NCBI RefSeq assembly: GCF_000419605.1
Contig: NZ_ATTI01000002.1
Span: forward strand, 1-64,000
Length of the DNA stretch: 64,000 nucleotides
Direction: 5' to 3'
Origin: Sphingomonas phyllosphaerae 5.2
Lineage (GTDB): Bacteria > Pseudomonadota > Alphaproteobacteria > Sphingomonadales > Sphingomonadaceae
In this document: piece by piece, positions 11,001 through 45,155 of the stretch
Layout: the number at the start of each line of letters is the position of its first letter
How positions within the stretch are numbered: position 1 is the first letter of the stretch
Program-made: the position numbers and the translations under genes
The notes under the pieces: generated by a model
What the model was told of the DNA's origin: nothing
Databases searched by the model: none
What the model saw: only the letters and a program-made list of their open reading frames with translations

Positions 11001-14000
11001 GCCGTAATTCTCGACGCGGTCGTCGCCCGCGCCGGTCGCGATCGAGCCGATGATCGTGCCGGTGTTGACGATGCGGGCACCGTCACCTGCGAATTGCGTG
11101 TCGATCGCGCCGGCGACAGTGGAGGTGGTGCCGTAGTTCTGCGCCGTGAAGCTGCCTCCGCCGCGCACCGTACCGGCATTGGTCAGGTCGAGCGCGCCGC
11201 CCGATACGAGGACCGCGCTCGACAGTGCGCCGGTCGCTTCGATCGTGCCCGTAGCGGTGTTGGTGATGGTTATCGTGTCGTCGGCAAAGAGGAGCAGCCC
11301 GGCACCGATGTCGGTATAGGTCTGGTCGGGTCCCGGGAAGAAGGGATCGGTCAGGACCGTGCCGCCATCGTTGGCGCGGATCGTGCCACTGTTGGTGATG
11401 GTGATCTGCCGCGTGCCTGACAGCGGAAGACTGTTCTGGCTGTAACCATAGGAGGCCAGATAGGCGGCATTGCCGCCCGCACCGGTTGCCTCGATCGTGC
11501 CGCCATTGTCGAGCGTGACGTTGGCATCGATGATGCCGGCGCCGTCGATAGCGTACAGCTCGATCGCCGCCGCGCTCCGGTCGGTCGAGATCGTGCCGCT
11601 GTTGACCAGCGACACCGCCATCGGCTGCGGCGCGGTCATATCGCCGGAGGTCTGGGTGGACGCCTCGAAGCCACCGCTGATCGCGCCGCTGTTGCGTGCC
11701 GTCACAACCGTCTGTGCGTAGGCACCGACGGCGCTTCTGCGCGCGCCGCGATCGATGCGCCCGGCGTTGACGAACTCCAGCGTCTCGCCCTGGCTGAGGT
11801 TGACGGCCCCGGCCTGGGAGGCGGTCTGCGCGGTGACGACGCCGCCGGCGTCGTTCTCGAAGCGCAGCACCCGCCCGTCGAAGCCGTCGTGCAGCGTCGC
11901 CCGGTTGGTGAATCCGGCCAGCACCGGCGTGGACCACGAGGACCAGCCGTCATTCCGGTAGGTCGTCACTTGGCCCGTGATATCGGCGGTGTTCACGATC
12001 GCCCCGTCGCCGAATACCGACAGCCCGGTCGCGACCGGCGCGGCTGCGGCGATCGTCACGACCGTGTCCGCACCCAGCGTGCGGACACCCTCGACCTCGA
12101 AGCCGCGCGGGAGCGCCGTTCCCAGCGTGACCGTGCCGGTCGTCTCGCGCGCATGCACGTACGTGTCGGTGCCGTCGCCGCCGTCGATTATCCCGCTGAC
12201 ACCGGTCACGTCGTCATAGGCGATCAGCGTGTCGTCGCCGCGGCCGAACAGCAGGTCGCCGGCGATCGTGCCGCCGCGTGCGCTGTAGGTCGCGCTGGAG
12301 AACGACCGATCGTTCCAGCTGCTTCCCAGGTCGACCGTGCCGGTGATCGTGCCGGCATTGTCCAGCGTACCGCCGCTGATGCGGATCGCGGTCCCGCTAC
12401 CCGCGATCGTGCCATCCGCCCGGTTCGTGATCGTGGCGATCGCATAATTGTCCGAACCGATCGCGACGTCGCCGCTGCTGACGATGCGGCCTTTGTTGTC
12501 GATCGTCAGGCCGTAGCTGCCCAGGACCGCGACCCCGGCGACGTCGATCGTGCCGGTGTTGGTCAGCCGCATCCCGCCGCCCCAGCTATACAGCCCGCGG
12601 CTGGTGGCGCCGCCCGCGACCTGCGCGATCGTGCCGTTGTTGGTGACCTGCGTCGCGCCGATCCCGGTCGCGCCGTCCAGCGCGATGGTACCGTCGTTGA
12701 CGACGGTGCTGCCGGATATCGCATAGAGGGTGCCGAAGGTGCCGGCGTCCCGCTTGCGCACGGTGATCGACCCGGCATTGGTGAAGCTGCTGCCGTCGTC
12801 GAGCGACACGGCGCTGTTCGTGGTGTTCGCGGCGCCCTGCTCCAGTGTCAGTGCGCCGCGGCTGGTGATTGCCAGCGTGTTGCCGTCCGACGAATATTCG
12901 CCCGGATTGCGCGTCAGGCCCAGCACACGGATCGCGCTGTTCGTGGTCGCGGCGATGTCGCCGGTCACGTCGATGGTGCCGGTCCCGGCGAGCGACAGCG
13001 GCACGTTCGCACCGGTCAGGGTCAGCGCGGCATCGTCGTACAGGTCGTAGCCGACCGACGAAAAGCCCGTGGCCGCCGTACCGGCGATGCTGGCATTGCC
13101 CCGCACGCGATAGACCAGCGTGGCATCGGTCGCGGTGACGGTGCCGGTGATCCCGGCGAAGGTGCCGGGGCCGTCGTTCGCCAGCTCGGTGACCAGCGTA
13201 GTGCCGCTCCCCAGCGTCAGGTTACCGTTCAGCACCCCGCCGACCACCGCGAAATAGCGGTTGTTGGCATAGCTGAAGCCGCTCGATCCATCGAAGCGGA
13301 CGTTGCCGTCGACCGTGCCGGCATTGACCACGGCAGCATTGGTGACGGTGAAGAAGGACTGCACCTGCGGGACGATGTCGCCGCGGACGCGCGCGCCGGC
13401 GCGGTTGTCGAGCGTGCCGCCCGAGCCCAGGATCACGCCCGCGTCGGTGCCGGCGATCGTGCCGCTGTTCGCCAGGTTGCCGAACAGCCGCACGCCGGCG
13501 GCGACGCCGGTAATGGTGCCGTTGTTGGTAGCGGTGCCGCCGGAGGCAAGGCTCGCGCCGATCCCCGCGTTCGAGGTGATCGCGCCGTCGTTGGTGAAGC
13601 GGCCGCCGGCGAAATTCACTGCGGTACCCGCGGCGGTGATCGCGCCGCTGTTGTCGAACGAGCCGCTCGTGACCGATACGCCGTTGACAGCCGACGTGAC
13701 CGTGCCGCTGTTGCCGAACGCCCGCGCCCAGTTCAGCGTGACCGCATAGGACGCGGCATCGCCGCCGGTCGCGTTAATGGTCTGCGCGTTGACGAACGCG
13801 ACCGATCCGTTGCCGACGAACGTGTCCGACACGATCGACGCGTTGCCGCGCAGCACGCCGTCATTGATGACCCTACCGCCACCACTGATCTGCAGGAGCC
13901 CGCCCAGCACACCGAAGGTGCTGTCCAGCGTCACCGTCCTGTTGGCGGTCGTTATCAGGCCAAGCCGTTCGAACCCGGTCGGCAACGCCACGGCGCCGAG

Positions 14001-15038
14001 CGTGGCGTCGTCCAGGATCGAGGCGCTGAGCGTGTCGATGCCGGCACCACCATCGATCGCGCCGGTAATGCCGGTGACCAGCCGCCCGCCATCCAGCCGC
14101 GCCAGGATCGTGTCGTCGCCCGCGCCGAGCGTCAGATTGCCGTCGATCGTACCGGACAGGGTATCGATCGTGCTGTTCTGCCCGCTGGACGCGCGCGACA
14201 CGACCGCGCCGGTGATCGTGCCGCTGTTGGTCAGCGCAAGCGCGCCGTCGACGCTGATCGCGGTAACACCCGGCGTTGCGATCGTCCCGGTGTTGGTGAC
14301 GACGGCGCGTCCGACGCGCGACGCGAACCCGATGCCGCCCGCGGCGGATACTGTGCCTGCGTTCGTCAGCTGCGTGATCTGTCCCTGCATCCCGGCGATC
14401 GTGCCGCCGGCCAGGTTGATGACCGACAGGCTGGTGTTGCCGACATCGCCGTCGGTAAGGATCGCCGGCCCGGCGGTTCCGGTCATCGTGCCGGCGTTGG
14501 TGAGGGTCGCGGAGGCGATCCCGACGTGATTGTACAGGTTCGGCCGCAGCAGCAGCGCCTGCGTGCCCGTGACCGTCGCACCGGTGCCCACCGTGATCGA
14601 CGTGCTGGAAGACGGATAGACAAATTGATAGCTGCCGGGCCAGCAGAAGGGGAAGGGGAAGGGGACCGATGCCCCGGCATAGGGATCGTCCGGGCAACGT
14701 TCGTAGCCGGGCTCGGCCGTGTTGACGAAGATTCCGGCGCCGCTGCCGCCGTCGATGCGTCCCTCCAGCGCGATCGCCGTCCCCGTCGCACGATTCACGA
14801 TCGCACCACCATCGTTCCCGCCCAGGACGGTTGCCCCGGCACCGATTGCCACGCGCGTGCCGAAGGTGGTGACGGTCAGTCCGTCAGCGTCGGTCCCGGT
14901 GCAGGTGGTGGTGCCGTTCGCGACAACTGGATCCGGCGAACATTGCGCTTGCGCCGCCGAGGCCGCGCTCATCGCTACGATGCTCGTCCCGAGCGCGAAC
15001 GACCACCGGCGCAACCGCACCGAACGCTGAACTGACAT
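8064..15038 (-). CDS. Giant autotransporter adhesin-like protein
   Basis: About 2,324 aa from ATG 15038, which gives a signal peptide ending in AQAQC. The passenger (about residues 40-2000) is built from many short beta-solenoid units of the type NAGTI.G..., NSGTI, LGAGDDT and DGGAGIDT; the acidic Gly-rich stretches resemble RTX nonapeptides. A passenger-associated region (TVNGNVTLAGGSLSVFEL ... DKLVVNGALQIASGATLQI) precedes the C-terminal beta-barrel (about the last 280 residues), which ends in VRLRF, the aromatic C-terminus expected for BamA-dependent insertion. This is a type Va secretion protein; such passengers usually mediate adhesion or aggregation. The long open frames on the opposite strand are codon-bias shadows. 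Confidence 0.88.
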   Translation of the reverse strand: MSVQRSVRLRRWSFALGTSIVAMSAASAAQAQCSPDPVVANGTTTCTGTDADGLTVTTFGTRVAIGAGATVLGGNDGGAIVNRATGTAIALEGRIDGGSGAGIFVNTAEPGYERCPDDPYAGASVPFPFPFCWPGSYQFVYPSSSTSITVGTGATVTGTQALLLRPNLYNHVGIASATLTNAGTMTGTAGPAILTDGDVGNTSLSVINLAGGTIAGMQGQITQLTNAGTVSAAGGIGFASRVGRAVVTNTGTIATPGVTAISVDGALALTNSGTITGAVVSRASSGQNSTIDTLSGTIDGNLTLGAGDDTILARLDGGRLVTGITGAIDGGAGIDTLSASILDDATLGAVALPTGFERLGLITTANRTVTLDSTFGVLGGLLQISGGGRVINDGVLRGNASIVSDTFVGNGSVAFVNAQTINATGGDAASYAVTLNWARAFGNSGTVTSAVNGVSVTSGSFDNSGAITAAGTAVNFAGGRFTNDGAITSNAGIGASLASGGTATNNGTITGVAAGVRLFGNLANSGTIAGTDAGVILGSGGTLDNRAGARVRGDIVPQVQSFFTVTNAAVVNAGTVDGNVRFDGSSGFSYANNRYFAVVGGVLNGNLTLGSGTTLVTELANDGPGTFAGITGTVTATDATLVYRVRGNASIAGTAATGFSSVGYDLYDDAALTLTGANVPLSLAGTGTIDVTGDIAATTNSAIRVLGLTRNPGEYSSDGNTLAITSRGALTLEQGAANTTNSAVSLDDGSSFTNAGSITVRKRDAGTFGTLYAISGSTVVNDGTIALDGATGIGATQVTNNGTIAQVAGGATSRGLYSWGGGMRLTNTGTIDVAGVAVLGSYGLTIDNKGRIVSSGDVAIGSDNYAIATITNRADGTIAGSGTAIRISGGTLDNAGTITGTVDLGSSWNDRSFSSATYSARGGTIAGDLLFGRGDDTLIAYDDVTGVSGIIDGGDGTDTYVHARETTGTVTLGTALPRGFEVEGVRTLGADTVVTIAAAAPVATGLSVFGDGAIVNTADITGQVTTYRNDGWSSWSTPVLAGFTNRATLHDGFDGRVLRFENDAGGVVTAQTASQAGAVNLSQGETLEFVNAGRIDRGARRSAVGAYAQTVVTARNSGAISGGFEASTQTSGDMTAPQPMAVSLVNSGTISTDRSAAAIELYAIDGAGIIDANVTLDNGGTIEATGAGGNAAYLASYGYSQNSLPLSGTRQITITNSGTIRANDGGTVLTDPFFPGPDQTYTDIGAGLLLFADDTITITNTATGTIEATGALSSAVLVSGGALDLTNAGTVRGGGSFTAQNYGTTSTVAGAIDTQFAGDGARIVNTGTIIGSIATGAGDDRVENYGTLTGDVFLGDGDDTFLHRASATLTGTVDAGIGLDSLIIDATAGGTVRASQFVNFERFSQIGAGAVDYVGAFQSDTIGVAGGTVAVAAGETLSSTGPVTITGSDAAETVDNAGTIAGAVELGAGDDTYVDRAGSSVLGTLDGGTGIDTYRVALSGDRSGIGARSGFEQLAVTGNGALALTLDQSFDTVALAGTGLALTLAGNTVGAVTGSDAAETLDVDGDIARVALGAGNDRLALGTTTAAGSYAGGTGSDTLRFTAAGPATLAGTVSGFETIALTGNALTVTGTLGATGETMTLGDGAQTLLLANGGTIAGTVDLGAGNDNFSLAPGGTLAGTVAGGAGDDIATVTLAGDRTLAAALTGFETLASTGTGTLTLTGAQRYAQVLSGTDLTVANGGSLTTSTLRMGAGNERLTIAGGFAGAVDGGAGTDTVAVSGGSASAPVAFTDVAGVEAFGMSAGYATVAGNAALGAVNLGGGRLVGLANSTLTASRFDVASGATFGSAGTVNGNVVVAGTLSPGASPGIMTVNGNVTLAGGSLSVFELTPTVSDKLVVNGALQIASGATLQIVPVGTLRAGTSYDLITASGGITGGFTTVTKPASLFGVIVQRADRIQLLGQFLTDARFSAQVARSIAYANATLAVQPATSTLFNSLPALVEASGASNARGFAQLTPEAYASATQLGIDHALSLAQVARGNAFATDRDDAGAFTFAQTIGQWHTLQGDAAQGSNAARAQSYGFLGGVGYGDRGWMVGAFGGYLNGRQQIGALGARTRADGVVAGVHGRYGADSGWGFSASLLYDGGKARTDRALPGTVAAATGRYDLHSWVSDIAASYGIETGEGWSLRPRLGVTYIRTTRAAVAEGGGSAFALQVAQDRHVAGFADAGLTFARSDASDAAFRPSVTLGARYQIEGQRADALAGYAGGGLGLTAVGAQRSELVGTAAGGVAYRLPSGLDLFASASAQTGRDDHQETITAGVRLRF

Positions 15039-15089
15039 CAATCTTCGCCCCTGTTCCCTACGGCGTCCCCACGCCATCGCAGTGTTTCT

Positions 15090-15104
15090 ATGATACGATA
15101 TCAT
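15090..15104. promoter_or_regulatory. Inverted repeat upstream of the autotransporter gene
   Basis: ATGATA-CGA-TATCAT, 6-bp arms and a 3-bp spacer, in a locally AT-rich patch about 52 bp upstream of the autotransporter start. It is a candidate operator or part of the promoter. No regulator is identified. Confidence 0.35.
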
Positions 15105-18790: not shown

Positions 18791-19567
18791 ATGAAAGCCG
18801 TAATTCTCGCGGGAGGGCTGGGCACGCGTCTGAGTGAAGAAACCGCGACCCGGCCCAAGCCGATGGTCGAGGTCGGCGGCCGCCCTATCCTGTGGCATAT
18901 CATGAAAGTCTTTGCAGCGCACGGCGTCAACGACTTCCTGATATGTTGCGGGTACAAAGGCTACGTTATCAAGGAATATTTCGCCAACTATTTCCTCCAC
19001 ATGTCGGACGTCACGTTCGACATGGAACACAACACGATGCACGTCCATCAGCGCAAGGCCGAGCCATGGCGCGTAACGCTGGTCGATACCGGCGAGCTGA
19101 CGATGACCGGTGGACGGCTGGGGTACTTGCGGCCTTACCTGGAGGATCAGGAGGCGTTCTGCATGACCTATGGGGACGGGGTCGCCGATGTTGATGTTGG
19201 CGCGCTGATCGATTTTCATCGCGCGCATGGGCGCAAGGCGACGGTCACCGCGGTGCAGCCATCTGGGCGCTACGGCGCGCTGCTGATCTCGGGCGAACAT
19301 CAGGTTGACGGCTTTGTCGAAAAGCCGCGCGGCGACGGCGGCTGGATCAACGGCGGCTTCTTCGTGCTGTCGCCGCAGGTGCTGGACCTGATCCAAGACG
19401 ATACGACCGTATGGGAGCAGTCACCGCTGGAGACGCTGGCGACCACCGGTGAACTGCGCGCCTTCCATCACACCGGCTTTTGGCAGCCGATGGATACGTT
19501 GCGCGACAAGGTCCACCTCGACCAGTTGTGGAGCTCGGGCCAAGCGCCGTGGAAGGTCTGGTCGTGA
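18791..19567 (+). CDS. rfbF: Glucose-1-phosphate cytidylyltransferase
   Basis: 258 aa from ATG 18791, matching the usual family length of about 257. The nucleotidyltransferase signature LAGGLGTRLSEET...RPKPM opens the protein; TYGDGVADVD (metal-binding Asp), EKPRGDGGWINGGFF and GFWQPMDTLRDK follow in family order. It makes CDP-glucose from CTP and glucose-1-phosphate and so commits sugar to the CDP branch. The next gene is the matching dehydratase, and its GTG start overlaps this gene's stop. Confidence 0.93.
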   Translation: MKAVILAGGLGTRLSEETATRPKPMVEVGGRPILWHIMKVFAAHGVNDFLICCGYKGYVIKEYFANYFLHMSDVTFDMEHNTMHVHQRKAEPWRVTLVDTGELTMTGGRLGYLRPYLEDQEAFCMTYGDGVADVDVGALIDFHRAHGRKATVTAVQPSGRYGALLISGEHQVDGFVEKPRGDGGWINGGFFVLSPQVLDLIQDDTTVWEQSPLETLATTGELRAFHHTGFWQPMDTLRDKVHLDQLWSSGQAPWKVWS

Positions 19568-20613
19568 CGCCGGCGCTTTGGCGGGGACGGCGCGTCCTCG
19601 TCACCGGACATACCGGGTTCAAGGGCAGCTGGCTGACGCTGCTGCTGCGCTCAGTCGGCGCGGAGGTAACAGGGCTTTCGCTGGCGCCGCCGACCACGCC
19701 GAACCTGTTCGACGTGTTGGGGCTAGCGGGCGAAATCCACCATATCGTTGGGGACATCCGCGACGCCGCGAAGGTCGCGGCGGTGATGGCCGAGACTGCA
19801 CCCGACACGGTGCTGCACCTCGCTGCGCAGCCGCTGGTGCGCCGGTCGTATCGCGATCCGTTGGAAACCTACGCCACCAACGTGATGGGCACCGCGCACG
19901 TTCTGCAGGCGGTGCGCGACGTCGCCTCGGTGCGGCATGTCGTCAGCGTGACCACGGACAAATGCTACGAGAATCGCGAATGGTTGTGGTCATATCGCGA
20001 GGACGAAGCGCTGGGCGGCTACGACCCATATTCCAGCAGCAAGGCGTGTGCGGAGCATATCACTGCCGCCTATCGCAGTTCCTTCCTACGTGAGCGCGGC
20101 GTCCATGTCGCGAGCGCGCGCGCTGGCAATGTGATTGGTGGAGGCGATTGGGCAGCGGACCGACTGGTTCCCGATTTCTTCCGCGCTGCCGATAACGGGC
20201 AGCCGGTGGTGTGCCGCTATCCGGCCGCACTGCGTCCATGGCAGCATGTGCTGGAGCCGGTGTCGGGCTATGTTGCCTTGGCGGAGGCGCTGTTTGACCG
20301 TGGCGACGCAGTGGCCGAAGCGTGGAATTTCGGTCCGTCGGAAGAGGATGCGCTGCCGGTCGGTTGGGTCCTCGACCAACTGACGCGGGTCTATGGCGGC
20401 CCTGGCTGGCGGCACGATCCCGCGCCGCAACCGCACGAGGCAGGGCTGCTTAAGCTTGACAGCAGCAAGGCACGCCAGCGGCTCGGCTGGCGGCCGCGCT
20501 GGCGGCTGAAACAGTCGCTCGCCGAGACCGCTGTCTGGCACCGCGCGTGGCGCGGGGGCGAGGACATGCGGCACGTGACGCTGGCGCAGATCAAACGGTT
20601 CATGGGCGGCTGA
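19564..20613 (+). CDS. rfbG: CDP-glucose 4,6-dehydratase
   Basis: 349 aa from GTG 19564, overlapping the rfbF stop by 4 bases. It is an extended short-chain dehydrogenase: VLVTGHTGFKGSWL is the NAD-binding loop with the FKGSW sequence typical of RfbG, TTDKCYEN and YDPYSSSKACAE carry the active-site Tyr/Lys, and ARAGNVIGGGDWA follows. It converts CDP-glucose to CDP-4-keto-6-deoxyglucose. With RfbF it forms the first two steps of all CDP-deoxysugar pathways. No RfbH-type 3-dehydratase follows, so 3-deoxygenation is not predicted. Confidence 0.93.
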   Translation: MTPALWRGRRVLVTGHTGFKGSWLTLLLRSVGAEVTGLSLAPPTTPNLFDVLGLAGEIHHIVGDIRDAAKVAAVMAETAPDTVLHLAAQPLVRRSYRDPLETYATNVMGTAHVLQAVRDVASVRHVVSVTTDKCYENREWLWSYREDEALGGYDPYSSSKACAEHITAAYRSSFLRERGVHVASARAGNVIGGGDWAADRLVPDFFRAADNGQPVVCRYPAALRPWQHVLEPVSGYVALAEALFDRGDAVAEAWNFGPSEEDALPVGWVLDQLTRVYGGPGWRHDPAPQPHEAGLLKLDSSKARQRLGWRPRWRLKQSLAETAVWHRAWRGGEDMRHVTLAQIKRFMGG

Positions 20614-20625
20614 CCTTACACGATC

Positions 20626-21177
20626 ATGAGCAACCTCGCGATCCATCCGACCCCGCTTGACGGGCTGTGCCGCATCGCGCGGCTGCGGCACGGCGACGCG
20701 CGCGGGTTCTTCTCCCGCTTCTTCGACGCTAATCGCTTGGCCGAACTCGGCTGGCCGGGGCCGGTCGTGCAGATGAATCATACGCAGACCGGCTCGACCG
20801 GGACGATCCGCGGGCTGCACTTCCAGCGAGCGCCGCACGGCGAATGGAAATACGTCAGTTGTCTGCGCGGATCGGTGTTCGACGTCGCGGTCGACCTTCG
20901 GCGCGGCTCGGTGACTTACGGCCGCTGGTATGGTGCGGTACTGTCGGCGGCCAACGGCCACAGCCTATGCATTCCCTCCGGGTTCGCGCACGGGTTCCAG
21001 ACGCTGGAGTCAGATTGCGAAATGATTTATCTCCACTCGGCGGCCTATGCCCCGGCATACGAAGGGGGTATCGACGCGCTTGATGCCACTCTGGGGATCG
21101 CCTGGCCGCTACCGGTATCCTCCCGGTCGAACCGGGATATCGCCCTTCCAGCCCTTGACCAAGAGACGGGTTTGTAA
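20626..21177 (+). CDS. RmlC-like NDP-4-keto-6-deoxysugar epimerase
   Basis: A 183-aa protein of the dTDP-4-dehydrorhamnose 3,5-epimerase family: DARGFFSRFF, IRGLHFQ (catalytic His), SGFAHGFQTLE and YAPAYEGGI (catalytic Tyr) are present. Because it sits between the CDP-glucose dehydratase and the C-methyltransferase genes, its substrate is more likely CDP-4-keto-6-deoxyglucose than the dTDP sugar; this is inference. It differs in sequence from the separate rmlC gene at 63,417. Its stop overlaps the next ATG (TAATG). Confidence 0.88.
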   Translation: MSNLAIHPTPLDGLCRIARLRHGDARGFFSRFFDANRLAELGWPGPVVQMNHTQTGSTGTIRGLHFQRAPHGEWKYVSCLRGSVFDVAVDLRRGSVTYGRWYGAVLSAANGHSLCIPSGFAHGFQTLESDCEMIYLHSAAYAPAYEGGIDALDATLGIAWPLPVSSRSNRDIALPALDQETGL

Positions 21178-22403
21178 TGCACTGTCGTCACTGCCATCAG
21201 CCGCTCGACGTGCCGTTCGTCGATCTTGGCGCTTCGCCACCTTCCAATTCCTATCTGACTACCGCCGCGCTCGATCGGCCGGAGCGTTATTATCCGCTGC
21301 GCGTGGCGGTCTGTTCGTCGTGCTGGCTGGTGCAGACCGAGGATTTCACCGACCGCGAAGAGTTTTTCTCCGAGGATTACGCTTATTTCAGCTCGTTCTC
21401 GACCGGCTGGCTAGATCATTCGCGTCGCTATGTCGAGGCGATGCGCGACCGGTTCGCACTGGATTCCGGGTCTCTAGTGGTGGAAGTCGCCGCCAATGAC
21501 GGTTATCTGCTCCAATATGTGACAGCGGCCGGCATCCGCGCGCTGGGAATTGAGCCCACCCACAGCACCGCCAACGCCGCGCGCGCCAAGGGAATAGAGA
21601 TTGTCGAGGAATTCTTCGGGGTGGCGCTGGCCGAACGGCTGGTTACAGAAGGACGCAGCGCCGATTTGACCGCTGCGAACAACGTGCTGGCACATGTTCC
21701 CGACATCAACGATTTCGTAGCCGGATTCGCCCGGTTACTGAAGCCGGCCGGGGTCGCGACTTTCGAGTTCCCGCACCTGCTGGAGATGGTAACCCATGGT
21801 CAGTTCGACACGGTCTATCACGAGCATTACTCTTATCTGTCGCTGACTGCCGTCGATCGCATCTTCGCCGCGAACGGACTTCAGGTGTTCGACGTCGACC
21901 AGATCCAGACTCATGGCGGCAGCTTGCGCGTCTATGCGCAGCGCCTCGATACGGGTTTGCGAACGCGAGGGGGCGTTGTAGAAGCGTTGTTACGGACCGA
22001 AGTTGATCGCGGCGTCGCGACTGCGGCCTTTTACAAAGGCTTTCAAAGCCGAGTTGATCGACTGAAGGATGAATTCGTCCGCTTCCTGCTCGATGCCAAG
22101 CGCGACGGACGGAAGGTTGCCGCCTATGGCGCCGCGGCGAAGGGCAACACGCTGCTCAACTTTGCGGGGGTGCGGCACGACCTTCTTCCCTGGGTAGTTG
22201 ATCGCAATCCTGCCAAAGCGGGCAAGTTTATGCCGGGCAGCCATATCCCGATCGTGGACGAGGATCGAATCCGCGCGGAGCGACCCGAGCTGATCGTGAT
22301 CCTACCCTGGAACATCAAGGACGAGGTCATGGAGCAGTTGAGCTATGCGCGCGAATGGGGCGCCAAGTTCATTACGGCTATTCCGGAACTAGAAATCCGA
22401 TGA
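21177..22403 (+). CDS. NDP-hexose C-methyltransferase (NovU/TylC3 type)
   Basis: A 408-aa protein with the three-part layout of sugar C-methyltransferases: an N-terminal zinc-binding segment (CRHCHQPL, later CSSCW), a SAM-binding domain (VVEVAANDGYLLQ, near residue 101), and a C-terminal domain (HEHYSYLS, QTHGGSLRVYA, YGAAAKGNTLLN). Characterised relatives methylate C-3 of 4-keto-6-deoxy sugars. The gene overlaps its neighbours at both ends within the CDP-sugar block, so a CDP-linked 4-keto-6-deoxyhexose is the likely substrate. Confidence 0.88.
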   Translation: MHCRHCHQPLDVPFVDLGASPPSNSYLTTAALDRPERYYPLRVAVCSSCWLVQTEDFTDREEFFSEDYAYFSSFSTGWLDHSRRYVEAMRDRFALDSGSLVVEVAANDGYLLQYVTAAGIRALGIEPTHSTANAARAKGIEIVEEFFGVALAERLVTEGRSADLTAANNVLAHVPDINDFVAGFARLLKPAGVATFEFPHLLEMVTHGQFDTVYHEHYSYLSLTAVDRIFAANGLQVFDVDQIQTHGGSLRVYAQRLDTGLRTRGGVVEALLRTEVDRGVATAAFYKGFQSRVDRLKDEFVRFLLDAKRDGRKVAAYGAAAKGNTLLNFAGVRHDLLPWVVDRNPAKAGKFMPGSHIPIVDEDRIRAERPELIVILPWNIKDEVMEQLSYAREWGAKFITAIPELEIR

Positions 22404-23500
22404 GCCGTATCCATTACACGAAGCCTTCGATCACGGATCTTGAGGTCGAGTTCGCGTCCGATGCCGCACGCAACGGCTGGGGCAGTGCATGCTATGCCTA
22501 TATCGAACGGTTCGAGCGCGAGTTCGCCGCGTTTCTTGGCTGTCGCCATGCCATTGCCACGTCCAGTTGTACTGGGGCCTTGCATCTCGGGCTCGCGGCA
22601 GCGGGCATCGGCGCGGGTGACGAGGTGATCGTCGCTGACACGAATTGGATCGCCTCCGTTGCTCCTGTCACCTACCTCGGTGCCACGCCGATTTTCGTCG
22701 ACGTTCTGCCCGATAGCTGGTGCATCGATCCGGCTGCAGCCGAGGCGGCGATTACGTCTAGGACGAAGGCGATCATCGCGGTACACCTGTACGGCAATCT
22801 GGCTGACCTACGCGCGCTTCGGGCTGTCGCCGATCGGCACGGCCTGTTGCTGATCGAAGATGCCGCAGAGGCATTCGGGTCGATCTATCACGACACGCGC
22901 GCGGGCGCGTTTGCGGACTTCGGCATCTTCTCGTTTCACGGCACCAAGACGCTGACGACGGGCGAGGGTGGGATGTTCGTGACCTCGCGTGCGGATCTGT
23001 ATGAGAAGGTGCTGACGCTCAACAACCATGGGCGTGTGACGGGTCAGACCAAGCAATTCTGGTCAGATATAATTGGCTATAAGTACAAGATGTCGAACAT
23101 GCAGGCTGCGATAGGTTGTGCGCAGCTTCAGCGTGCCGACGAGCTGATCGCGGGCAAGCGCCGTGTGTTCGAAACGTATCACGACTTATTGAGCGACTTG
23201 CCGCTTAGCATGAACCCCGAACCGGAAGGATGCGTCAATGGCTATTGGATGCCGACGATCGTCATCGACGAAGGAGCAGCGTTCGACCGCCAGGTCGTAC
23301 TGGACGCCTTCAAGGAGGATGAGATTGATGGGCGCGTGTTCTTCTGGCCCGTCAGCATGCTCCCCATGTTCGAGAGCCGCCCGGAAAACGCGATCAGCTA
23401 TTCTCTTTACCGGCGAGCGCTGAACCTTCCCAGTTATCACGACTTGACCGAGGAGGAGATGGCGCGGGTCGCCAACGTGATCCGTACCGTGGTTGGATAG
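22400..23500 (+). CDS. DegT/DnrJ/EryC1/StrS sugar aminotransferase
   Basis: 366 aa from ATG 22400, overlapping the previous stop (ATGA). It is a fold-type I PLP enzyme: TSSCTGALHLGL binds phosphate, LIEDAAEAFGS holds the cofactor Asp, and FSFHGTKTLTTGEGG carries the Schiff-base lysine. Because this lysine is present and the protein lacks the longer Fe-S form of RfbH, it should transaminate rather than 3-deoxygenate. The likely reaction is conversion of a 4-keto sugar to a 4-amino sugar, as in perosamine synthesis. Acting after the C-methyltransferase, it would give a branched amino sugar. Confidence 0.9.
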   Translation: MSRIHYTKPSITDLEVEFASDAARNGWGSACYAYIERFEREFAAFLGCRHAIATSSCTGALHLGLAAAGIGAGDEVIVADTNWIASVAPVTYLGATPIFVDVLPDSWCIDPAAAEAAITSRTKAIIAVHLYGNLADLRALRAVADRHGLLLIEDAAEAFGSIYHDTRAGAFADFGIFSFHGTKTLTTGEGGMFVTSRADLYEKVLTLNNHGRVTGQTKQFWSDIIGYKYKMSNMQAAIGCAQLQRADELIAGKRRVFETYHDLLSDLPLSMNPEPEGCVNGYWMPTIVIDEGAAFDRQVVLDAFKEDEIDGRVFFWPVSMLPMFESRPENAISYSLYRRALNLPSYHDLTEEEMARVANVIRTVVG

Positions 23501-23501
23501 G

Positions 23502-24152
23502 ATGCGCGACTACATTCTCTGGGGCGCGACGGGCCAAGCAAGGGTCCTGATCGAACTCCTCGCGGGCCAGTCGATGCAGCTGGTCGCGTTGGTGGATCGC
23601 GCCGTGGCGGAGCCTCCGCTCCCAGGCGTGACGATGCTGCGCGATGCTGAAGCATTGGACACGTGGCTAAACGAACGAGAGGCGCCGCTGCCCGGCGCGC
23701 TGGTCGCGATCGGCGGTCATCATGGTGCGGAGAGGCGCCGATTGCAGCAGGCGCTGCAGCAGCGCGGGGTGAAGATCCTTTGCGCCATCCATCGTGCCGC
23801 CTATGTGGCCACCGACGCGATGGTCGGGGCGGGTAGCCAGGTGTTGGCTGGCAGCGTGGTCGCCGCCCGAGCCCAACTGGGCGAGGCGGTCATCGTTAAT
23901 ACCGGCGTAACTGTAGATCATGATTGCGTGATCGATGCAGGAGTTCACCTCGCTCCAGGTGTCACGCTCGCCGGCGAGATAATGGTCGGCAGGGATGCCT
24001 TCGTCGGCGCCGGGGCGACTGTGCTGCCCCGTCTGCGAATCGGGGCGGGGGCGATCGTCGGGGCCGGCGCGGTGGTGACGCGCGACGTTGTCGCGGGCGC
24101 GACCGTCGTCGGAGTTCCGGCGAGGGCGATTTCCGCAAGCGGATCGGCATGA
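23502..24152 (+). CDS. PglD/NeuD-family sugar N-acyltransferase
   Basis: 216 aa; ATG 23502 lies one base after the previous stop. The N-terminal Rossmann-like domain (YILWGATGQARVLIELL) binds the nucleotide sugar in PglD. A C-terminal left-handed beta-helix of hexapeptide repeats follows (TVDHDCVIDAGVHLAPG, FVGAGATVLPRLRIG), where the His in VDHDC corresponds to the catalytic base. Relatives acetylate 4-amino-4,6-dideoxysugars. Placed directly after the aminotransferase gene, it probably acylates the new amino group. Confidence 0.87.
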   Translation: MRDYILWGATGQARVLIELLAGQSMQLVALVDRAVAEPPLPGVTMLRDAEALDTWLNEREAPLPGALVAIGGHHGAERRRLQQALQQRGVKILCAIHRAAYVATDAMVGAGSQVLAGSVVAARAQLGEAVIVNTGVTVDHDCVIDAGVHLAPGVTLAGEIMVGRDAFVGAGATVLPRLRIGAGAIVGAGAVVTRDVVAGATVVGVPARAISASGSA

Positions 24153-24772
24153 CGATCGCGCGTATCCTTCAAGCTTATGTAGAGCGGCAGATCGCCCATG
24201 TGGTCCCAGGCTTTTCCGATGCGATCTCTCTTCCCCTCGCTGCTGTCGAGGAGGCGGTGGAGCGGATCGAGTGCAACGTCCGCGCGCAGCATGGCGGCGA
24301 ACGAGGATTTGACCCGCTCATCTCCGGGCAATATGCCACCTTCCTGTATTATCTCGCCCATGTGCTTCGTATGGATCGTGAACGAGCGACGCACGTCTTC
24401 CTGCTCAACAAGGCACTGAACGGAATCGACTTATTTTACGACGTGGTTATGCCCGATCATTTCCTCATTGGGCACACGGTAGGGATGGTATTTGCTAAGG
24501 CCGACTATGGCGATTACTGCGTCTTTCATCAGGGATGCACGGTCGGACGCATCTTGGCGGATCGCCCGATACTAGGCGAGGGAGTCGTCATCTATCCTGG
24601 CGGTGCTATCATCGGGCGCTGTCGCGTCGGGCCGAACACTGTCGTGTCAGCCGGCGTCCAGGTTATTAACACGGACACACCAGGCAACTGCATCGTGTTC
24701 CAAGGCGAGAATGGCCGGCCGTTCTTCAAGCCAATCAGGGAGCGCTTCTATGCGCGCTATTACCGGGCTTAG
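24149..24772 (+). CDS. Serine acetyltransferase-like hexapeptide acyltransferase
   Basis: 207 aa from ATG 24149, overlapping the PglD-like stop. A helical N-terminal half (residues 1-95) resembles the helical domain of CysE-type enzymes; the C-terminal left-handed beta-helix carries FHQGCTVGRI (likely catalytic His) and NTVVSAGVQVINTDTPG. In an EPS operon it more likely adds an O- or N-acyl group to a sugar, or makes an acyl-amino acid decoration, than serves cysteine synthesis. The exact acceptor is unknown. It overlaps the flippase gene by 23 bp. Confidence 0.75.
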   Translation: MTIARILQAYVERQIAHVVPGFSDAISLPLAAVEEAVERIECNVRAQHGGERGFDPLISGQYATFLYYLAHVLRMDRERATHVFLLNKALNGIDLFYDVVMPDHFLIGHTVGMVFAKADYGDYCVFHQGCTVGRILADRPILGEGVVIYPGGAIIGRCRVGPNTVVSAGVQVINTDTPGNCIVFQGENGRPFFKPIRERFYARYYRA

Positions 24773-26288
24773 GCGACTGGCTGGTAGGTCGGCGGGCCTG
24801 CGCGTCAATCTCGTCGCGAACTATGTGGGTCAAGGATGGACTGCGATCGCCAACATCGCGTTCATCCCAGCCTACATCCATTATCTTGGCGTTCAAGCCT
24901 ATGGGCTAATCGGCGTATTCGCTATCATCCTGTCGACCGCCAGCCTGCTTGACGGGGGTTTAACACCGACATTAAATCGAGAACTGGCGACCTTCTCCGC
25001 AGGAGGGCATACCGTCCAATATGTCCGCAACCTGCTGCGCACGATCAATCTGATCTGCGCGGCTGGGTTCGTTCTGGTGACGTTGGCGGGCTTGGCTGCA
25101 GCCCCGGCGCTGGCGGCGCACTGGATCGGCGATCGGTCGTTGCCGCCGGGGACGGTGGTTCAGTCGCTCTTTCTCATGATCTTGATGGCGGCTCTGCGTA
25201 TCGTCGAGGGAGTACAGCGGAGCGCGTTGCTGGGTCTGCACCGACATGTCCTGCTGAACTTGCTGTCGATGATTACGGTGACTTTGCGTGCGGGAGGGGT
25301 CATCGCGCCGCTGGCACTCGTGTCGGCAACTCCGCAAATGTTCTTCTGCTGGCAGGCCACAATATCGGCAGTGTCAGTCGCCGCCTTCGCCGTGGCGGTG
25401 CGTAAGAGTATTCCTTCGTCCGAGCGCCGACCACGCTTCGACCCGGCGATCGTGCGAACGCTGCGGCATTTTGCGGGTGGCGTCCTAGGGGCGACGGCCT
25501 TGGCCGTGGTCCTGACTCAGGCGGACAAGATCCTCTTGGTCAAGCTAGTTCCGCTGGACCAGTTCAGCGCTTATGCCTTGGCGACCGCAATCGCGAGCGG
25601 GCTGTATCAGGTCGTAAGCCCGGTGTCGCAATCCTATTACCCTGTCTTTACGAGTCGGATGGCGAGCGGGCAAAACCAGCTGGCGATGTCCTATCATCAG
25701 GGATCGCAGATCGTGTCGGCGACGGTAGGCCCGCCTGCGGCTATCCTGTCTTTCTTCTCCGGTCCGGTGCTGACGCTGTGGACCGGTAATCCCCCGCTCG
25801 CTGCTATGGCTAGCCCTATTTTATCACTGCTTGCACTGGGCACCGCGTGTCATTGTGCGATGTACATGCCCTACATGCTTCAATTGTCCGCCGGATGGTC
25901 TGGATTGGCGATGAGGATGAATATCGCCGCAGTCCTGATAGTGTTTCCGGCGTTACTAATCGTAGTCCCTCGCGCAGGTATGATCGGTGCGGCCGTGATC
26001 TGGCTGGTGCTGAATGCCGGCGCACTGGTTACCACGATCCGTATCATGCACCGACGCCTGTTGATAGGCGAGATGCGACGATGGTACGTGCAGGATCTAC
26101 TGATCCCGTTCGGGGTGGCGTTCGGCGTAGCCGCGCTGTGCCGTTTCCTCTATCCCGACACAGCAACTCCTGCGGTCCGGCTACTCGCCCTTGGAGCCTC
26201 ATGCGTTGTGACGCTGATCGCGGGAATTTTGACGGTTTCTTTTCTACGCGAGCGGATTAGCTCGCTTGTAAAACGGTGTCTCGCCTGA
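24750..26288 (+). CDS. Wzx-type polysaccharide flippase
   Basis: 512 aa from ATG 24750, preceded by AGGGAG. Topology is that of the MOP/PST exporters: 12-14 hydrophobic segments from NLVANYVGQGWTAIANIAFI onward, with YYPVFTSRMASG between the two halves. It should move the undecaprenyl-linked repeat unit to the periplasmic face. The start lies inside the upstream acyltransferase gene, so the two are translationally linked. Confidence 0.85.
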   Translation: MRAITGLRRLAGRSAGLRVNLVANYVGQGWTAIANIAFIPAYIHYLGVQAYGLIGVFAIILSTASLLDGGLTPTLNRELATFSAGGHTVQYVRNLLRTINLICAAGFVLVTLAGLAAAPALAAHWIGDRSLPPGTVVQSLFLMILMAALRIVEGVQRSALLGLHRHVLLNLLSMITVTLRAGGVIAPLALVSATPQMFFCWQATISAVSVAAFAVAVRKSIPSSERRPRFDPAIVRTLRHFAGGVLGATALAVVLTQADKILLVKLVPLDQFSAYALATAIASGLYQVVSPVSQSYYPVFTSRMASGQNQLAMSYHQGSQIVSATVGPPAAILSFFSGPVLTLWTGNPPLAAMASPILSLLALGTACHCAMYMPYMLQLSAGWSGLAMRMNIAAVLIVFPALLIVVPRAGMIGAAVIWLVLNAGALVTTIRIMHRRLLIGEMRRWYVQDLLIPFGVAFGVAALCRFLYPDTATPAVRLLALGASCVVTLIAGILTVSFLRERISSLVKRCLA

Positions 26289-27776: not shown

Positions 27777-28791
27777 GTGTTTGATCCCACGGTTTGATGG
27801 TGCGATCCTTTCGTTGGAATGGAAGGAAGCCGCATGGGACAAGTTCGTCACGGGAGCGCCACGACCACGCACGCCGTCCGAGCAGCAATACAGCGATCGC
27901 AAGCTTCGCTCGCGACGCTGAGCCGTGAGCTGGGGATCAATCCGAAGACAGTCGCGAAGTGGCGTAAGAGGGCAACGGTCGAGGATATAAAGACCGGGCC
28001 GAAGGCCCCTCATTCGACTACCTTGACCGAGGCTGAAGAGGCGATGGTTGTGGCGTTCCGACGGCACACACTGCTGCCGCTCGACGACTGCCTCTACGCG
28101 TTGCAGCCATCGATCCCGCAGTTGACGCGCTCAGCGCTGCATCGTTGCCTCCAGCGGCCCGGCATATCCCGCCTGCCGGATATCGAGGGCGAAAAACCGA
28201 AGCGCCAGCGCTTCAAGCGTTATCCCATCGGCTTCTTTCACATCGATATCGCCGAGGTGCAGACTGCCGAAGGCAAACTGTACCTGTTCGTCGGCATCGA
28301 CCGCTACCCGCCAAGTTCGCGGTCACCCAATTGGTTGAGAAGGCTGACAGGCGAACTGCGTGGGAGTTCCTCGAACACCTGCTGAAGGCCGTGCCGTACC
28401 GCATCCACACCATCCTGACCGACAACGGCATCCAGTTTGCCGACCAGCCTCGTAACCGCAACACCGCCTGGTCGCGTCAGATGCGGTTCGACATGATCTG
28501 CGAGGCAAATGGCATCGAGCACCGGCTCACGAAACCGAACCATCCGTGGACCAACGGTCAGGTCGAGCGGATGAACCGGACCATCAAGGAGGCGACCGTC
28601 AAACGCTTCCACTACGAAAGCCACGACCAGCTAGGCACGCACCTCGCCGACTTCATGGCCGCCTACAATTTCGCCCGCCGGCTCAAGACGCTGAACGGTC
28701 TCACGCCCTACGAATACATCGCCAAGATCTGGACGTCAGAGCCAAATCGGTTCATCGTCGACCCGATCCACCAGATGCCGGGACTAAACAC
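27777..28791 (+). mobile_element. IS481-type insertion sequence, copy 1
   Basis: A 1,015-bp element with ends GTGTTTGATCCC... and ...GGGACTAAACAC (terminal inverted repeat), flanked on both sides by CTAG (27,773-27,776 and 28,792-28,795), a 4-bp target duplication. It lies inside the 3' end of the IS630 transposase. An inverted second copy of exactly the same core length is at 45,388-47,726. Confidence 0.88.
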
Positions 28792-28795
28792 CTAG
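27834..28795 (+). pseudogene. IS481-family transposase, frameshifted (copy 1)
   Basis: ATG 27834 opens an N-terminal helix-turn-helix (TLSRELGINPKTVAKWRKR) followed by the start of the rve core (YPIGFFHIDIAEVQTAEGKL). After LFVGIDR the frame shifts: normal coding (KFAVTQLVEKADRRTAWEFL, LTDNGIQFAD, HPWTNGQVERMNRTIKEA) continues in another frame to the C-terminus MPGLNT. The lesion lies in CGCTACCCGCCAAGTTC (near 28,305), where about two extra bases seem present. The stop codon TAG is supplied by the CTAG target duplication. The same lesion occurs in copy 2. Confidence 0.87.
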
Positions 28796-29708
28796 GTAGT
28801 TGCGGCGTTCTGCGGGGGAGAAGGCATCGAGAAGCGTGCCGACGCGTCTCCATGTTGCCTCGTGGGATCGCTCGGCGGCCTTGCGCATGAGGTGCTTGAG
28901 CTTGGCGAAGACCTGCTCGATCGGGTTCAGGTCCGGGCTGTAGGGCGGCAGGAACAGCAGCCTGGCACCGACCGCACGGATAGCGTTGCGGATGGCGGGT
29001 TTCTTGTGGCTGGAGAGGTTGTCCATGATGACGACGTCGCCGGGCGACAGCGTCGGCACGAGGCACTGCTCGATATAGTCGGTGAAGCTTTGCGCGTTGA
29101 CCGGCTGGTCCAGCACGCACGGCGCGTCGATCCGGTCGCAGCGCAGCGCCGCCAGGAACGTCATCGTGCGCCAGTGGCCGTAGGGCACCTTGGCATGGAG
29201 CCGCTGGCCGACCGGTGCCCAACCGCGCAAGGGGGCCATGTTCGTCTTCACCCACGTCTCATCGATGAAGACGAGACGCGCCGGATCAAGCCGACCCTGG
29301 TATTTCTTCCACTGCGCGCGACGCCGGGCAATTGCGGGACGGAGTTGTTCGGCGGGCAGCACGCTTTTTTTTGAAGCTCAGCCCCTCGACATGGGCGAAC
29401 CGCCAGACCTGAACATAGTCGACCTTCACGTCGCGGCCCGCCAACTCCGCTACCAGTCCACGCAAGGTGAAGTCGCGGGTCATCCGCTCCAGCAGCCAGT
29501 CACGTGTCGCGCCGGACAGGATGTTGGATCGGCGACCACCCATCCGGCTCGGCGCGGCGCTGCCCGTATCGCGAAAGCGCCGCACCCATTTGATCGCCGA
29601 ACTCGGCGCCACCCCGAAGCGTGAAGCAGCCGCGTGGCACGACATGCCATCGGCGATTACCGCCCTGACCACCCGTTCCCGCAGGTCCATCGAATACGGC
29701 TTTGACAT
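28796..29708 (-). pseudogene. IS630-family transposase, interrupted near its C-terminus
   Basis: The N-terminal frame from ATG 29708 carries the helix-turn-helix (SRFGVAPSSAIKWVRRF). At GLSFKKKR an A8 run (minus strand, about 29,370) marks a frameshift to the catalytic frame, which holds LVFIDETWVKTNM, VVIMDNLSSHK and YSPDLNPIEQVFAKLK, the DDE residues. A slippery A-run here is typical of programmed frameshifting in IS630 elements. The frame reaches RRNYL and then enters the inserted IS481 end. The missing tail (VNSGYGSA-stop) is on the far side at 27,747-27,772. Confidence 0.87.
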
Positions 29709-30990: not shown

Positions 30991-31149
30991 GCGAGACGCG
31001 GACCTTGAACGTGGTAAGTCCGACGATGCGCAGCGACGCGTGGCGGACGAGGGATGGCGCGGGGCGACATCCCTATGAAGGCGCTCTCTCGATTGCAACA
31101 GATGCACCGGCCGGTCGCTTGAAAGAGTCACTCAAACGGAAGGATGACC

Positions 31150-44621: not shown

Positions 44622-45155
44622 CACTCGTGTCCTCGACCTGTTTATTTCGGGAGGACCCTCAGCATAGGCTTACGAGGAAAGGAAGGCGCTTTTTTCAGCC
44701 ACACTCCGCGCGTCATCAGCGTCGATCAAGACGGCAATCGAAGGAACGCTGATTCGGTTTTGGAGCGAAGGTCCTTGGAGTGGCGGCATCGATCGGAACC
44801 GGTGTCGTCATCCTCCATACGGCTTCGCATAGCGAGAGCACGCCCAAGGCGGCGGACCTGATACTGCGCTTGTGTCAGCCAATCTACATGGACCTTCGTG
44901 CCATGTAGAAGACGGTTGAGTTGTTGAAGTTAATTGGGAAAGCCGCGTTTGCTGTCCTCAACAGCGTGCCGCATCAAAGCACTGACGGCCAAGAGGGGGC
45001 TGACATGGTCATGTTGTTACTCGTGCTTGAGGTAACGGATGCTTCGTTTGGCAATGGCGTGGCGTTCGGCCGCTGCATGATTTCAGGCCAAGCGGCACAG
45101 GGGCTCGAACCGCATAAGTTACCGGCATTTATGTTGCCCGTGGCGCAGTATTTTC

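Follow-up and report, generated by a model that had tools for sequence, protein, structure and literature searches.

Within the 64-kb stretch of DNA analysed here (the window), seven open reading frames lie head to tail on the plus strand between positions 18791 and 24772, neighbours overlapping or standing apart by no more than 12 bp (Table 1). All genes named in a preliminary description of this locus were found at that span and on that strand. A Wzx-like flippase gene lies directly 3' of the seventh gene, overlapping it by 23 bp; its profile scores (21.9 bits against PF13440, cut-off 23, and 22 bits against NF041503) are both sub-threshold. Very probably, the product of the seven genes is a rare, branched amino sugar destined for an exopolysaccharide.

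Table 1. Genes of the sugar locus and the adjoining flippase gene, with positions in the window
Feature	Position	Strand	Basis and remarks
rfbF/ddhA, glucose-1-phosphate cytidylyltransferase (to CDP-glucose)	18791..19567	+	TIGR02623, 1tzf
rfbG/ddhB, CDP-glucose 4,6-dehydratase (to CDP-4-keto-6-deoxyglucose)	19564..20613	+	TIGR02622; GTG start; 4-bp overlap
RmlC-type 4-keto-sugar 3- and/or 5-epimerase (RmlC)	20626..21177	+	PF00908
Sugar C-3 methyltransferase (CMT), NovU/TylC3/TcaB9 type	21177..22403	+	PF08421 + PF08484
DegT/DnrJ/EryC1 aminotransferase (DegT), probably C-4	22400..23500	+	PF01041
NeuD/PglD/VioB-type acyltransferase (NeuD), probable 4-amino N-acylation	23502..24152 (ATG) or from TTG 23493	+	TIGR03570
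CysE/EpsC-like acyltransferase, probable O-acetylation	24149..24772	+	weak EpsC/CysE matches
Wzx-like flippase	24750..26288	+	sub-threshold PF13440, NF041503; context of exopolysaccharide export

The first two enzymes belong to CDP-type families. RfbF scored 461 bits against the TIGR02623 equivalog (cut-off 300) and matched 1tzf, a glucose-1-phosphate cytidylyltransferase of known structure, over almost its full length with 425 bits, the next best match, of other activity, reaching 93 bits. RfbG scored 474 bits against the TIGR02622 equivalog (cut-off 278), and its sole solved matches at E<=1e-20 were the CDP-glucose 4,6-dehydratases 1rkx and 1wvg. Both proteins thus lie far above the cut-offs of the CDP families to which they had first been assigned, whereas dTDP families score just 44-102 bits on them. 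C-methyl amino sugars of actinomycete antibiotics are built on dTDP, and a similar pathway on dTDP or another carrier would suit the solved relatives of the epimerase, which are mostly dTDP-sugar enzymes by name, and those of the CMT, which presumably use dTDP sugars. Against such a carrier stand the family scores of RfbF and RfbG as well as their retention together with the CMT and DegT in 70 of 80 loci (best 80 of 356 DegT relatives), and we judge it highly improbable. CDP would be the carrier in vivo.

RmlC scored 186 bits against the wider family PF00908 and 149.3 bits against TIGR01221, the dTDP-4-dehydrorhamnose 3,5-epimerase equivalog, just below the cut-off of 155.75. The window's genome encodes a second RmlC beside an RmlB, both over their cut-offs, at contig positions 63330-65046, so that the RmlC of the cassette is not needed for dTDP-rhamnose. 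We expect this homologue to epimerise at carbons adjacent to the ketone; inversion at both C-3 and C-5 would be the simplest case and would lead to the L series. In support of a double inversion, the 3,5-epimerase RmlC 1dzr matches best among proteins of known structure, and H65, K75, Y135 and D171, which we take to be the catalytic residues, are conserved in 95% or more of the 136 RmlCs lying close to a CMT. If RmlC inverted C-3 only or C-5 only, the same pathway would yield a D-sugar or another 3-C-methyl diastereomer instead of the L-manno or L-talo type. Consistent with a single inversion are the score below the equivalog cut-off, the presence of NovW and the 3-epimerase of the D-allose pathway among the solved relatives, and the position of the CMT before RmlC in six of the 80 loci (best 80 of 356; L057, L060, L071, L080, L106 and L119); set against the 1dzr match and the conserved residues, this outcome appears possible but rather unlikely. 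RmlC would presumably act before the CMT.

The CMT contains both domains of its type (PF08421, 85 bits; PF08484, 205 bits), and its solved relatives are the sugar 3-C-methyltransferases of D-mycarose (4rv9, 5t64) and TcaB9 (3ndi), in keeping with the NovU/TylC3 assignment made at the outset. C3, C6, C46 and C49, forming the Cys4 site, together with Y214, E216 and H217 are conserved in at least 98% of 149 alignment rows, the Tyr and His residues presumably representing the active site. The homology to the enzymes for the C-methyl sugars of actinomycete antibiotics (mycarose, the TcaB9 substrate) extends over a full-length alignment including the Tyr-His-Glu-His stretch; in contrast to those systems, the CMT of the window is accompanied by first enzymes of CDP type and is part of a polysaccharide locus. 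It is predicted to place a methyl group on C-3, for which the 4-ketone would be required.

The fifth gene product, DegT, scored 399 bits against PF01041 and is over no NCBIfam cut-off. As described before, it contains the characteristic lysine: Lys183 is present, invariant in 12 rows and conserved in at least 98% of 84, its loop being a low-confidence stretch of the structure model. At this position the RfbH-like proteins of L046-L048 carry a His; with Lys in the PLP position, DegT is therefore an aminotransferase rather than a dehydrase of RfbH type. Since it is the single PF01041 protein of the genome at E<=1e-20, the reported absence of RfbH was confirmed. Perosamine synthase catalyses the C-4 amination of a 4-keto-6-deoxyhexose, and the GDP-perosamine synthases of Caulobacter (3bn1, 3dr7) are the best solved relatives of DegT by sequence (37% identity) and among its best structural matches, although they use a GDP carrier and a sugar without a C-methyl group. 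In the fold comparison, perosamine synthase, DesV and ArnB matched within about one Z unit, too close to tell 4- and 3-aminotransferases apart, and the matches within a few Z units include the E1 dehydrase along with 3-aminotransferases. The fold matches would thus also fit an enzyme that aminates C-3 or works as a deoxygenase-like partner. We consider this very unlikely, given that the best sequence matches are C-4 enzymes, that Lys183 stands where the RfbH-like proteins have His, and that a C-3 carrying methyl and hydroxyl would offer no ketone for amination. Judging from its sequence, DegT probably acts at C-4, as the cap that turns the sugar into an amino sugar.

We analyzed the neighbourhoods of the best 80 of 356 DegT relatives, with flanks of up to 10 kb. 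All five genes RfbF-RfbG-RmlC-CMT-DegT are present in 70 of these 80 loci, which come from several phyla. More than 4 kb of upstream sequence was available in 71 loci, 66 of them having the four partners upstream on the same strand, while in L118 and L122 all four lie beside DegT but on the other strand. Seven of the ten loci without at least one of the five genes end at a contig edge (L050, L053, L058, L063, L064, L066 and L109); L091 is devoid of RfbG, with none in its genome at E<=1e-30, and in L117 and L120, from two Nitrospira genomes, DegT sits beside RfbF only, the CMT being encoded elsewhere and no RfbG exceeding the cut-off. A CMT occurred in the flanks of none of 28 other PF01041 loci, a control limited to flanks of at most 1.5 kb as compared to up to 10 kb for the 80, which is valid for direct neighbours because the CMT usually abuts DegT. 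A search for the seven-gene set had been proposed in the preliminary description. The set as a unit was rejected, all seven genes occurring in just three of the 80 loci (best 80 of 356; the NeuD match of L094 is weak, 79 bits), and the recurring unit is the five-gene core. A separate draw of 398 sampled Pseudomonadota genomes, which yielded 60 CMT loci from genomes other than that of the window, contained ten further genomes with this DegT, five of them already among the 80 loci. In seven of the ten, the stretch read contains the full set of five; in the remaining three, L152 is without RfbF and RfbG, L154 is without RfbG (a further stretch, L267, has one) and L145 lies at a contig end. The five genes are a conserved unit in many unrelated bacteria and form a cassette that is widespread and apparently mobile and that probably yields kansosamine-like sugars. 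In phage records, this DegT was not found at E<=1e-80.

RfbF, RfbG and RmlC accompany the CMT in 38 of the 60 CMT loci, where the end step is a reductase (SDR) in 24, DegT in seven and neither in seven. L232, classed as 'other', has a DegT fragment at the contig end. A reductase of the epimerase/dehydratase family at 80 bits or more was present in 29 of the 60 CMT loci versus none of the 80 DegT loci (best 80 of 356), the label being assigned by tblastn with a small number of PF01370 proteins as queries and these two counts coming from two of them. With looser thresholds, five of the 80 DegT loci match the two queries at 50 bits, one at 60 and none at 80. L263, one of nine DegT loci among the 60 CMT loci, carries DegT and reductase together. 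On a FastTree phylogeny of the CMT, where 45 of the 146 internal branches are left open and 80 of the source loci had been chosen by DegT, the amination/reduction label undergoes 22 or more switches, and the CMT of the window groups (98*) with three CMTs of reductase type from its own genus. The amination and reduction caps are exchanged repeatedly. This interchange on the CMT tree, together with the division into reductase and DegT loci, implies a shared pre-cap intermediate and therefore C-methylation before amination.

On a Pacificitalea plasmid, the replicon searched, RfbF, RfbG, RmlC and DegT occur with a CMT nowhere on that plasmid, and DegT therefore need not see a C-methyl substrate. 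Along with the separation of DegT from the CMT in the two Nitrospira genomes and the absence of such a DegT from 31 of the 38 RfbF-RfbG-RmlC-CMT loci, this raises the alternative of two sugars, a neutral 3-C-methyl sugar made by RfbF, RfbG, RmlC and the CMT, and an unmethylated or different nucleotide sugar modified by DegT and NeuD. A neutral sugar, however, needs a C-4 reductase, and that of the sister loci was found neither in the 80 DegT loci (80 bits; best 80 of 356) nor in the 64-kb window; moreover, the genome has no second PF01041 protein at the threshold given above and no second RfbG over cut-off. Two separate sugars are thus improbable.

The sixth gene scored 193 bits against the NeuD/PglB/VioB family TIGR03570 (cut-off 161), in agreement with the PglD type proposed earlier. 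Immediately after DegT, the best 80 of 356 loci carry a gene of NeuD type in 26 cases, an ATP-grasp gene in six, an AMP-ligase gene in five and members of two formyltransferase groups in five and four. The genes following DegT vary and are N- and O-modifying, and the cap provided by NeuD has several alternatives. The seventh gene gave weak EpsC/CysE matches alone (44 and 35 bits). Its type lies downstream of DegT in three of the 80 loci (best 80 of 356) and near a CMT without this DegT in five of the 60 CMT loci (L221, L242, L245, L246 and L250) and likewise in L038 and L039. Because it is present near the CMT in loci without this aminotransferase, it probably stands outside the amino-sugar core, O-acetylating the sugar or the polysaccharide; for the same reason, a role of this second hexapeptide gene as N-acyltransferase was ruled out. 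A CmcI-like methyltransferase is encoded within 3.8 kb in 51 of the 80 loci (best 80 of 356), and a CmcI-like protein had no match in the 64-kb window at E<=1e-3. As a guess, the CmcI-like enzyme may be responsible for 2-O-methylation.

Taken together, it is likely that the product of the locus is an N-acylated 4-amino-4,6-dideoxy-3-C-methylhexose in CDP-activated form, intended for the neighbouring exopolysaccharide of Wzx/Wzy type; it would be built on a five-gene core in which the C-4 step (amination or reduction) and the N-cap can be exchanged. RfbF would supply CDP-glucose and RfbG convert it to CDP-4-keto-6-deoxyglucose; following epimerisation and C-methylation, DegT would transaminate C-4 and NeuD acylate the new amine. 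We infer CDP-4-acylamido-4,6-dideoxy-3-C-methyl-L-hexose as the most likely product, carrier and stereochemistry included. The route from CDP-glucose through epimerisation, C-3 methylation, 4-amination and N-acylation, as outlined initially, is thus supported in its enzyme families and in the coupling of the five core genes, but not in treating the seven genes as a unit, NeuD being an alternative cap and the seventh gene probably lying outside the core. More broadly, with about even chances in our estimate, RfbF-RfbG-RmlC-CMT may be a general bacterial platform for CDP-3-C-methyl-4-keto-6-deoxy-L-hexose, on which the C-4 reductase (vinelose-type neutral sugars) has repeatedly been swapped for DegT (kansosamine-type amino sugars). 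The amine would then serve for diversification, being capped by acetyl or acyl, formyl, WbqC-linked (perhaps glycyl), ATP-grasp-ligated or fatty-acyl groups (AMP-ligase/LuxE/LuxC), often with O-methylation by the CmcI-like enzyme; the result would be a family of amino sugars, widespread among environmental bacteria and as yet without an assigned pathway.

Several known sugars share parts of this scheme. The CDP-3,6-dideoxyhexose pathways (abequose, paratose, ascarylose) use RfbF, RfbG and RfbH and have the first two steps in common with the window, whereas its genome is without RfbH, and C-methylation and amination replace C-3 deoxygenation. CDP-vinelose, a CDP-linked 3-C-methyl-6-deoxy-L-sugar of Azotobacter vinelandii, would fit the RfbF-RfbG-RmlC-CMT-reductase loci but has a hydroxyl at C-4 where the predicted sugar has an amino group. 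Kansosamine of Mycobacterium kansasii is a 4-acylamido-3-C-methyl-6-deoxyhexose that also carries a 2-O-methyl group; the window has no CmcI-like methyltransferase. With a methyl group at C-3, an acylamido group at C-4 and a 6-deoxy position, the sugar predicted for the window is probably of kansosamine type. The statement that the combination was not known from bacterial polysaccharides is too strong: the cassette is found in several phyla, and the class of sugar is similar to kansosamine, whose cluster includes a cytidylyltransferase. According to the gene table and main text of PMC4403928, M. kansasii makes N-acyl kansosamine as part of its lipooligosaccharide, and the cluster encodes a glucose-1-phosphate cytidylyltransferase, an NAD-dependent epimerase/dehydratase, a rhamnose epimerase and a methyltransferase, with no M. 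marinum orthologues listed; the likeness is one of gene names, and an aminotransferase is named neither in that table nor in that text. In Sinorhizobium meliloti, a pSymB stretch has RfbF-RfbG-CMT in the same order and no DegT match in the 25 kb read; we infer its identity with SMb21416-SMb21418, given in PMC4053727 as ddhA, ddhB and an NDP-hexose 3-C-methyltransferase.

Among the open-licence PMC papers searched, no report joined a C-methyltransferase, CDP-glucose and an aminotransferase, or rfbF, rfbG and a C-methyltransferase, or 3-C-methyl, O-antigen, aminotransferase and CDP; there was nothing on vinelose and no biosynthesis for sibirosamine (passages of PMC4426599) or dideoxy-3-C-methyl sugars. 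For CDP-linked 3-C-methyl-4-amino sugars, the cassette offers a defined set of genes that can be tested, and a natural experiment in which one cap gene would switch a neutral branched sugar to an amino sugar. If the proposal is true, kansosamine-type sugars become predictable in the surface polysaccharides of bacteria from several phyla; the cassette also suggests where mycobacterial kansosamine may have come from, which can be checked by sequence. Current annotation scatters the cassette under labels including 'dTDP-4-dehydrorhamnose 3,5-epimerase family protein', 'class I SAM-dependent methyltransferase' and 'perosamine synthetase'.

Seven ORFs from RfbF to a second acyltransferase were real and had been correctly described, with spacings of -8 to +12 bp that vary with start choice. 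RfbF scored far above its NCBIfam equivalog cut-off as a glucose-1-phosphate cytidylyltransferase, and RfbG did so as a CDP-glucose 4,6-dehydratase; the best solved relatives (1tzf for RfbF, 1rkx/1wvg for RfbG) have these same two activities. The RmlC homologue matched PF00908 and narrowly missed the rmlC equivalog cut-off (149.3 vs 155.75). The sugar 3-C-methyltransferase (CMT) has both domains typical of sugar C-methyltransferases, one with the zinc site and one C-terminal, and can be aligned throughout with the D-mycarose 3-C-methyltransferase of known structure. The Lys-type aminotransferase DegT, the only PF01041 protein of the genome, is closest by sequence to perosamine synthetases, the NeuD-type acyltransferase reaches its subfamily cut-off, and the seventh gene gave weak EpsC/CysE matches and no others. 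Conserved residues in CMT (Cys 3/6/46/49, Tyr214, Glu216, His217), RmlC (His65, Lys75, Tyr135, Asp171) and DegT (Lys183) agree with the proposed mechanism. The genome has two contigs and a size of 3.92 Mb; the window is the initial 64 kb of the contig of 124.8 kb. The neighbourhood of the seven genes, with glycosyltransferases and flippase-like, PF02397, Wzy_C, Poly_export and Wzz/tyrosine-kinase-like proteins, resembles an exopolysaccharide locus of the Wzx/Wzy type. A second RmlC adjoins RmlB on the same contig and, since both exceed their cut-offs (203 vs 156 and 492 vs 365 bits) and lie side by side, the genome likely carries a separate dTDP-rhamnose gene set. Three transposases within the locus are a sign of mobility, its two pectate-lyase-like proteins are possibly polysaccharide lyases or epimerases, and a long repetitive ORF beside it appears autotransporter-like by eye.

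Features of contig NZ_ATTI01000002.1 in and around the apparent exopolysaccharide locus
Feature	Position	Strand	Remark
Repetitive ORF	8064-15104	-	2346 aa
Seven-gene array	18791-24772	+	
DDE_3-type transposase	28784-29362	-	
Pectate-lyase-like protein	31144-32679	+	PF12708
Initiating sugar transferase	33322-34590		PF02397
Wzy_C protein	34751-36205		
Poly_export protein	36244-36954		
Wzz/tyrosine-kinase-like protein	36964-39156		
IS110-type transposase	41289-42311	-	
Pectate-lyase-like protein	43185-44624	-	PF12708
Integrase-core (rve) transposase	45515-46420	-	
Second RmlC and RmlB	63330-65046		

Using 12 aligned DegT sequences as query, we found 356 relatives among GTDB species genomes and analysed the loci of the best 80, keeping up to 10 kb per side. 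RfbF, RfbG, RmlC and CMT accompany DegT in 70 of these 80 loci, and the four partners lie upstream on the same strand in 66 of the 71 with more than 4 kb of upstream sequence; at two loci (L118 and L122) all four are beside DegT but on the opposite strand. The five-gene loci, several of them from metagenome-assembled genomes, belong by record title to Pseudomonadota (61), Cyanobacteriota (3), Omnitrophota, Verrucomicrobiota, Myxococcota and Bacteroidota (one each), with two unassigned. As a control, we used 30 PF01041 loci out of 60 phylum-wide genomes: both members of the cassette DegT family carry CMT, as compared to none of the other 28 in flanks searched up to 1.5 kb. Cassette DegT was found in 11 of 398 Pseudomonadota genomes and in 3 of 295 genomes within the genus, own genome included in both counts. 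Its distribution is widespread yet patchy, as would be expected if these surface-polysaccharide genes spread by horizontal transfer. The preliminary reading of a C-methyl amino sugar pathway appears largely correct, with its unit redrawn: not seven genes, but a five-gene core that exemplifies a widespread cassette whose caps are exchangeable.

CMT itself, at 45% identity or more, occurs in 60 of the 398 Pseudomonadota genomes, own included. Leaving out the own genome, we compared 60 CMT loci from 59 genomes, 38 of which hold RfbF, RfbG and RmlC close to CMT. Of these 38, 24 have a candidate reductase of the SDR type for the end step, seven have cassette DegT and seven have neither. Across all 60 loci DegT is present in nine, one of which (L263) has the reductase as well. 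At 80 bits, the reductase was detected in 29 of 60 CMT loci vs none of the best 80 of 356 DegT loci, and it is not present in the window. Within the genus, a PF01370 protein follows CMT at four loci (L034, L035, L038, L039), an ORF similar to PF01370 proteins is placed after RmlC at L043, and at L046-L048 RfbG is followed by an RfbH-like protein and then CMT; these RfbH-like proteins have His at the lysine position, that of L047 scoring 315 bits to RfbH (cut-off 423). On a FastTree phylogeny of 149 CMTs, the amination/reduction label switches at least 22 times, 13 changes of the amination label being forced by starred branches, and a starred five-member clade unites the CMTs of the window and Sphingomonas yantingensis with three reductase-type CMTs. 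Because one CMT lineage serves both end steps, the 3-C-methyl-4-ketone predicted as CMT product fits best as the intermediate common to amination and reduction. This is the strongest computational argument for methylation before amination, the order suggested earlier, which also agrees with chemistry, as C-3 methylation by this methyltransferase family requires a 4-ketone.

In the most likely pathway, RfbF would convert glucose-1-phosphate to CDP-glucose and RfbG would convert this to CDP-4-keto-6-deoxyglucose, followed by epimerisation by the RmlC homologue, C-3 methylation by CMT, C-4 transamination by DegT and N-acylation by NeuD, before sugar transfer and Wzx/Wzy export. The predicted DegT structure (mean pLDDT 76, below 50 in the Lys183 loop) does not single out one specificity, its matches to several kinds of sugar aminotransferase being of similar quality, and the putative C-4 position therefore rests on sequence similarity to perosamine synthetases and on chemistry. 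The product is a prediction, and the pathway, initially predicted to be new, is better seen as a variation on CDP- and C-methyl-sugar pathways already described than as a category of its own. Known 3-C-methyl sugars include kansosamine, which is 4-acylamido-4,6-dideoxy-2-O-methyl-3-C-methyl-L-mannose, and CDP-vinelose, a CDP-linked 2-O-methyl-3-C-methyl-6-deoxy-L-sugar from Azotobacter. We hypothesize that the cassette is linked to kansosamine of M. kansasii. N-acyl kansosamine is present in some lipooligosaccharides of this species, whose lipooligosaccharide cluster includes genes for a glucose-1-phosphate cytidylyltransferase, an NAD-dependent epimerase/dehydratase, a rhamnose epimerase and a methyltransferase (PMC4403928). 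The available portion of that paper lists an M. marinum orthologue for none of the four and assigns none to kansosamine, and the word 'aminotransferase' is absent from its main text.

The proposed gene-neighbourhood search recovered the five-gene core, with variable genes after DegT. Among the best 80 of 356 loci, 26 have a NeuD-type gene as the first one after DegT within 400 bp, 13 a PhyH-like gene, six an ATP-grasp gene, five and four a formyltransferase of one or other of two groups, five an AMP-ligase, four the methyltransferase MT_c15 and ten other genes, with nothing recognised in seven; recognised types are those with a query protein taken from the 80 loci. Downstream of DegT, 51 of the 80 have a CmcI-like methyltransferase (PF04989) at a distance of up to 3.8 kb. 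In the window, L049 (S. yantingensis) and L051, its position directly after NeuD is held by the CysE/EpsC-like gene, and we speculate that this enzyme may O-acetylate the position O-methylated in other loci. At six loci (L096, L105, L110, L112, L117, L120), DegT is followed by an AMP-binding ligase, a LuxE-like acyl-protein synthetase and a LuxC-like acyl-CoA reductase, which hints that the sugar is modified with a fatty-acyl or a reduced acyl group.

Several loci depart from the core pattern. S. meliloti has a trio of ddhA, ddhB and a 3-C-methyltransferase (PMC4053727). On pSymB of strain 1021 (L129), RfbF-RfbG-CMT occurs with no DegT in the 25 kb analysed; a CmcI-like methyltransferase and an RmlC lie ~8-10 kb off. 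Plasmid pDY25-F of Pacificitalea manganoxidans carries RfbF-RfbG-RmlC-DegT (L133, 6206-9735) and no C-methyltransferase anywhere along its length, possibly an unmethylated version of the amino sugar set. On Brachyspira hyodysenteriae plasmid pZH1261, where no RfbG exceeds the cut-off, a radical SAM protein occupies its place between RfbF and RmlC, CMT, DegT and an acetyltransferase (L131, 10213-15778), and may perform other chemistry. In two Nitrospira loci (L117, L120), an N-terminally extended DegT ORF (452 aa) comes next after RfbF, and a C-methyltransferase of 50-51% identity is located elsewhere in the genome.
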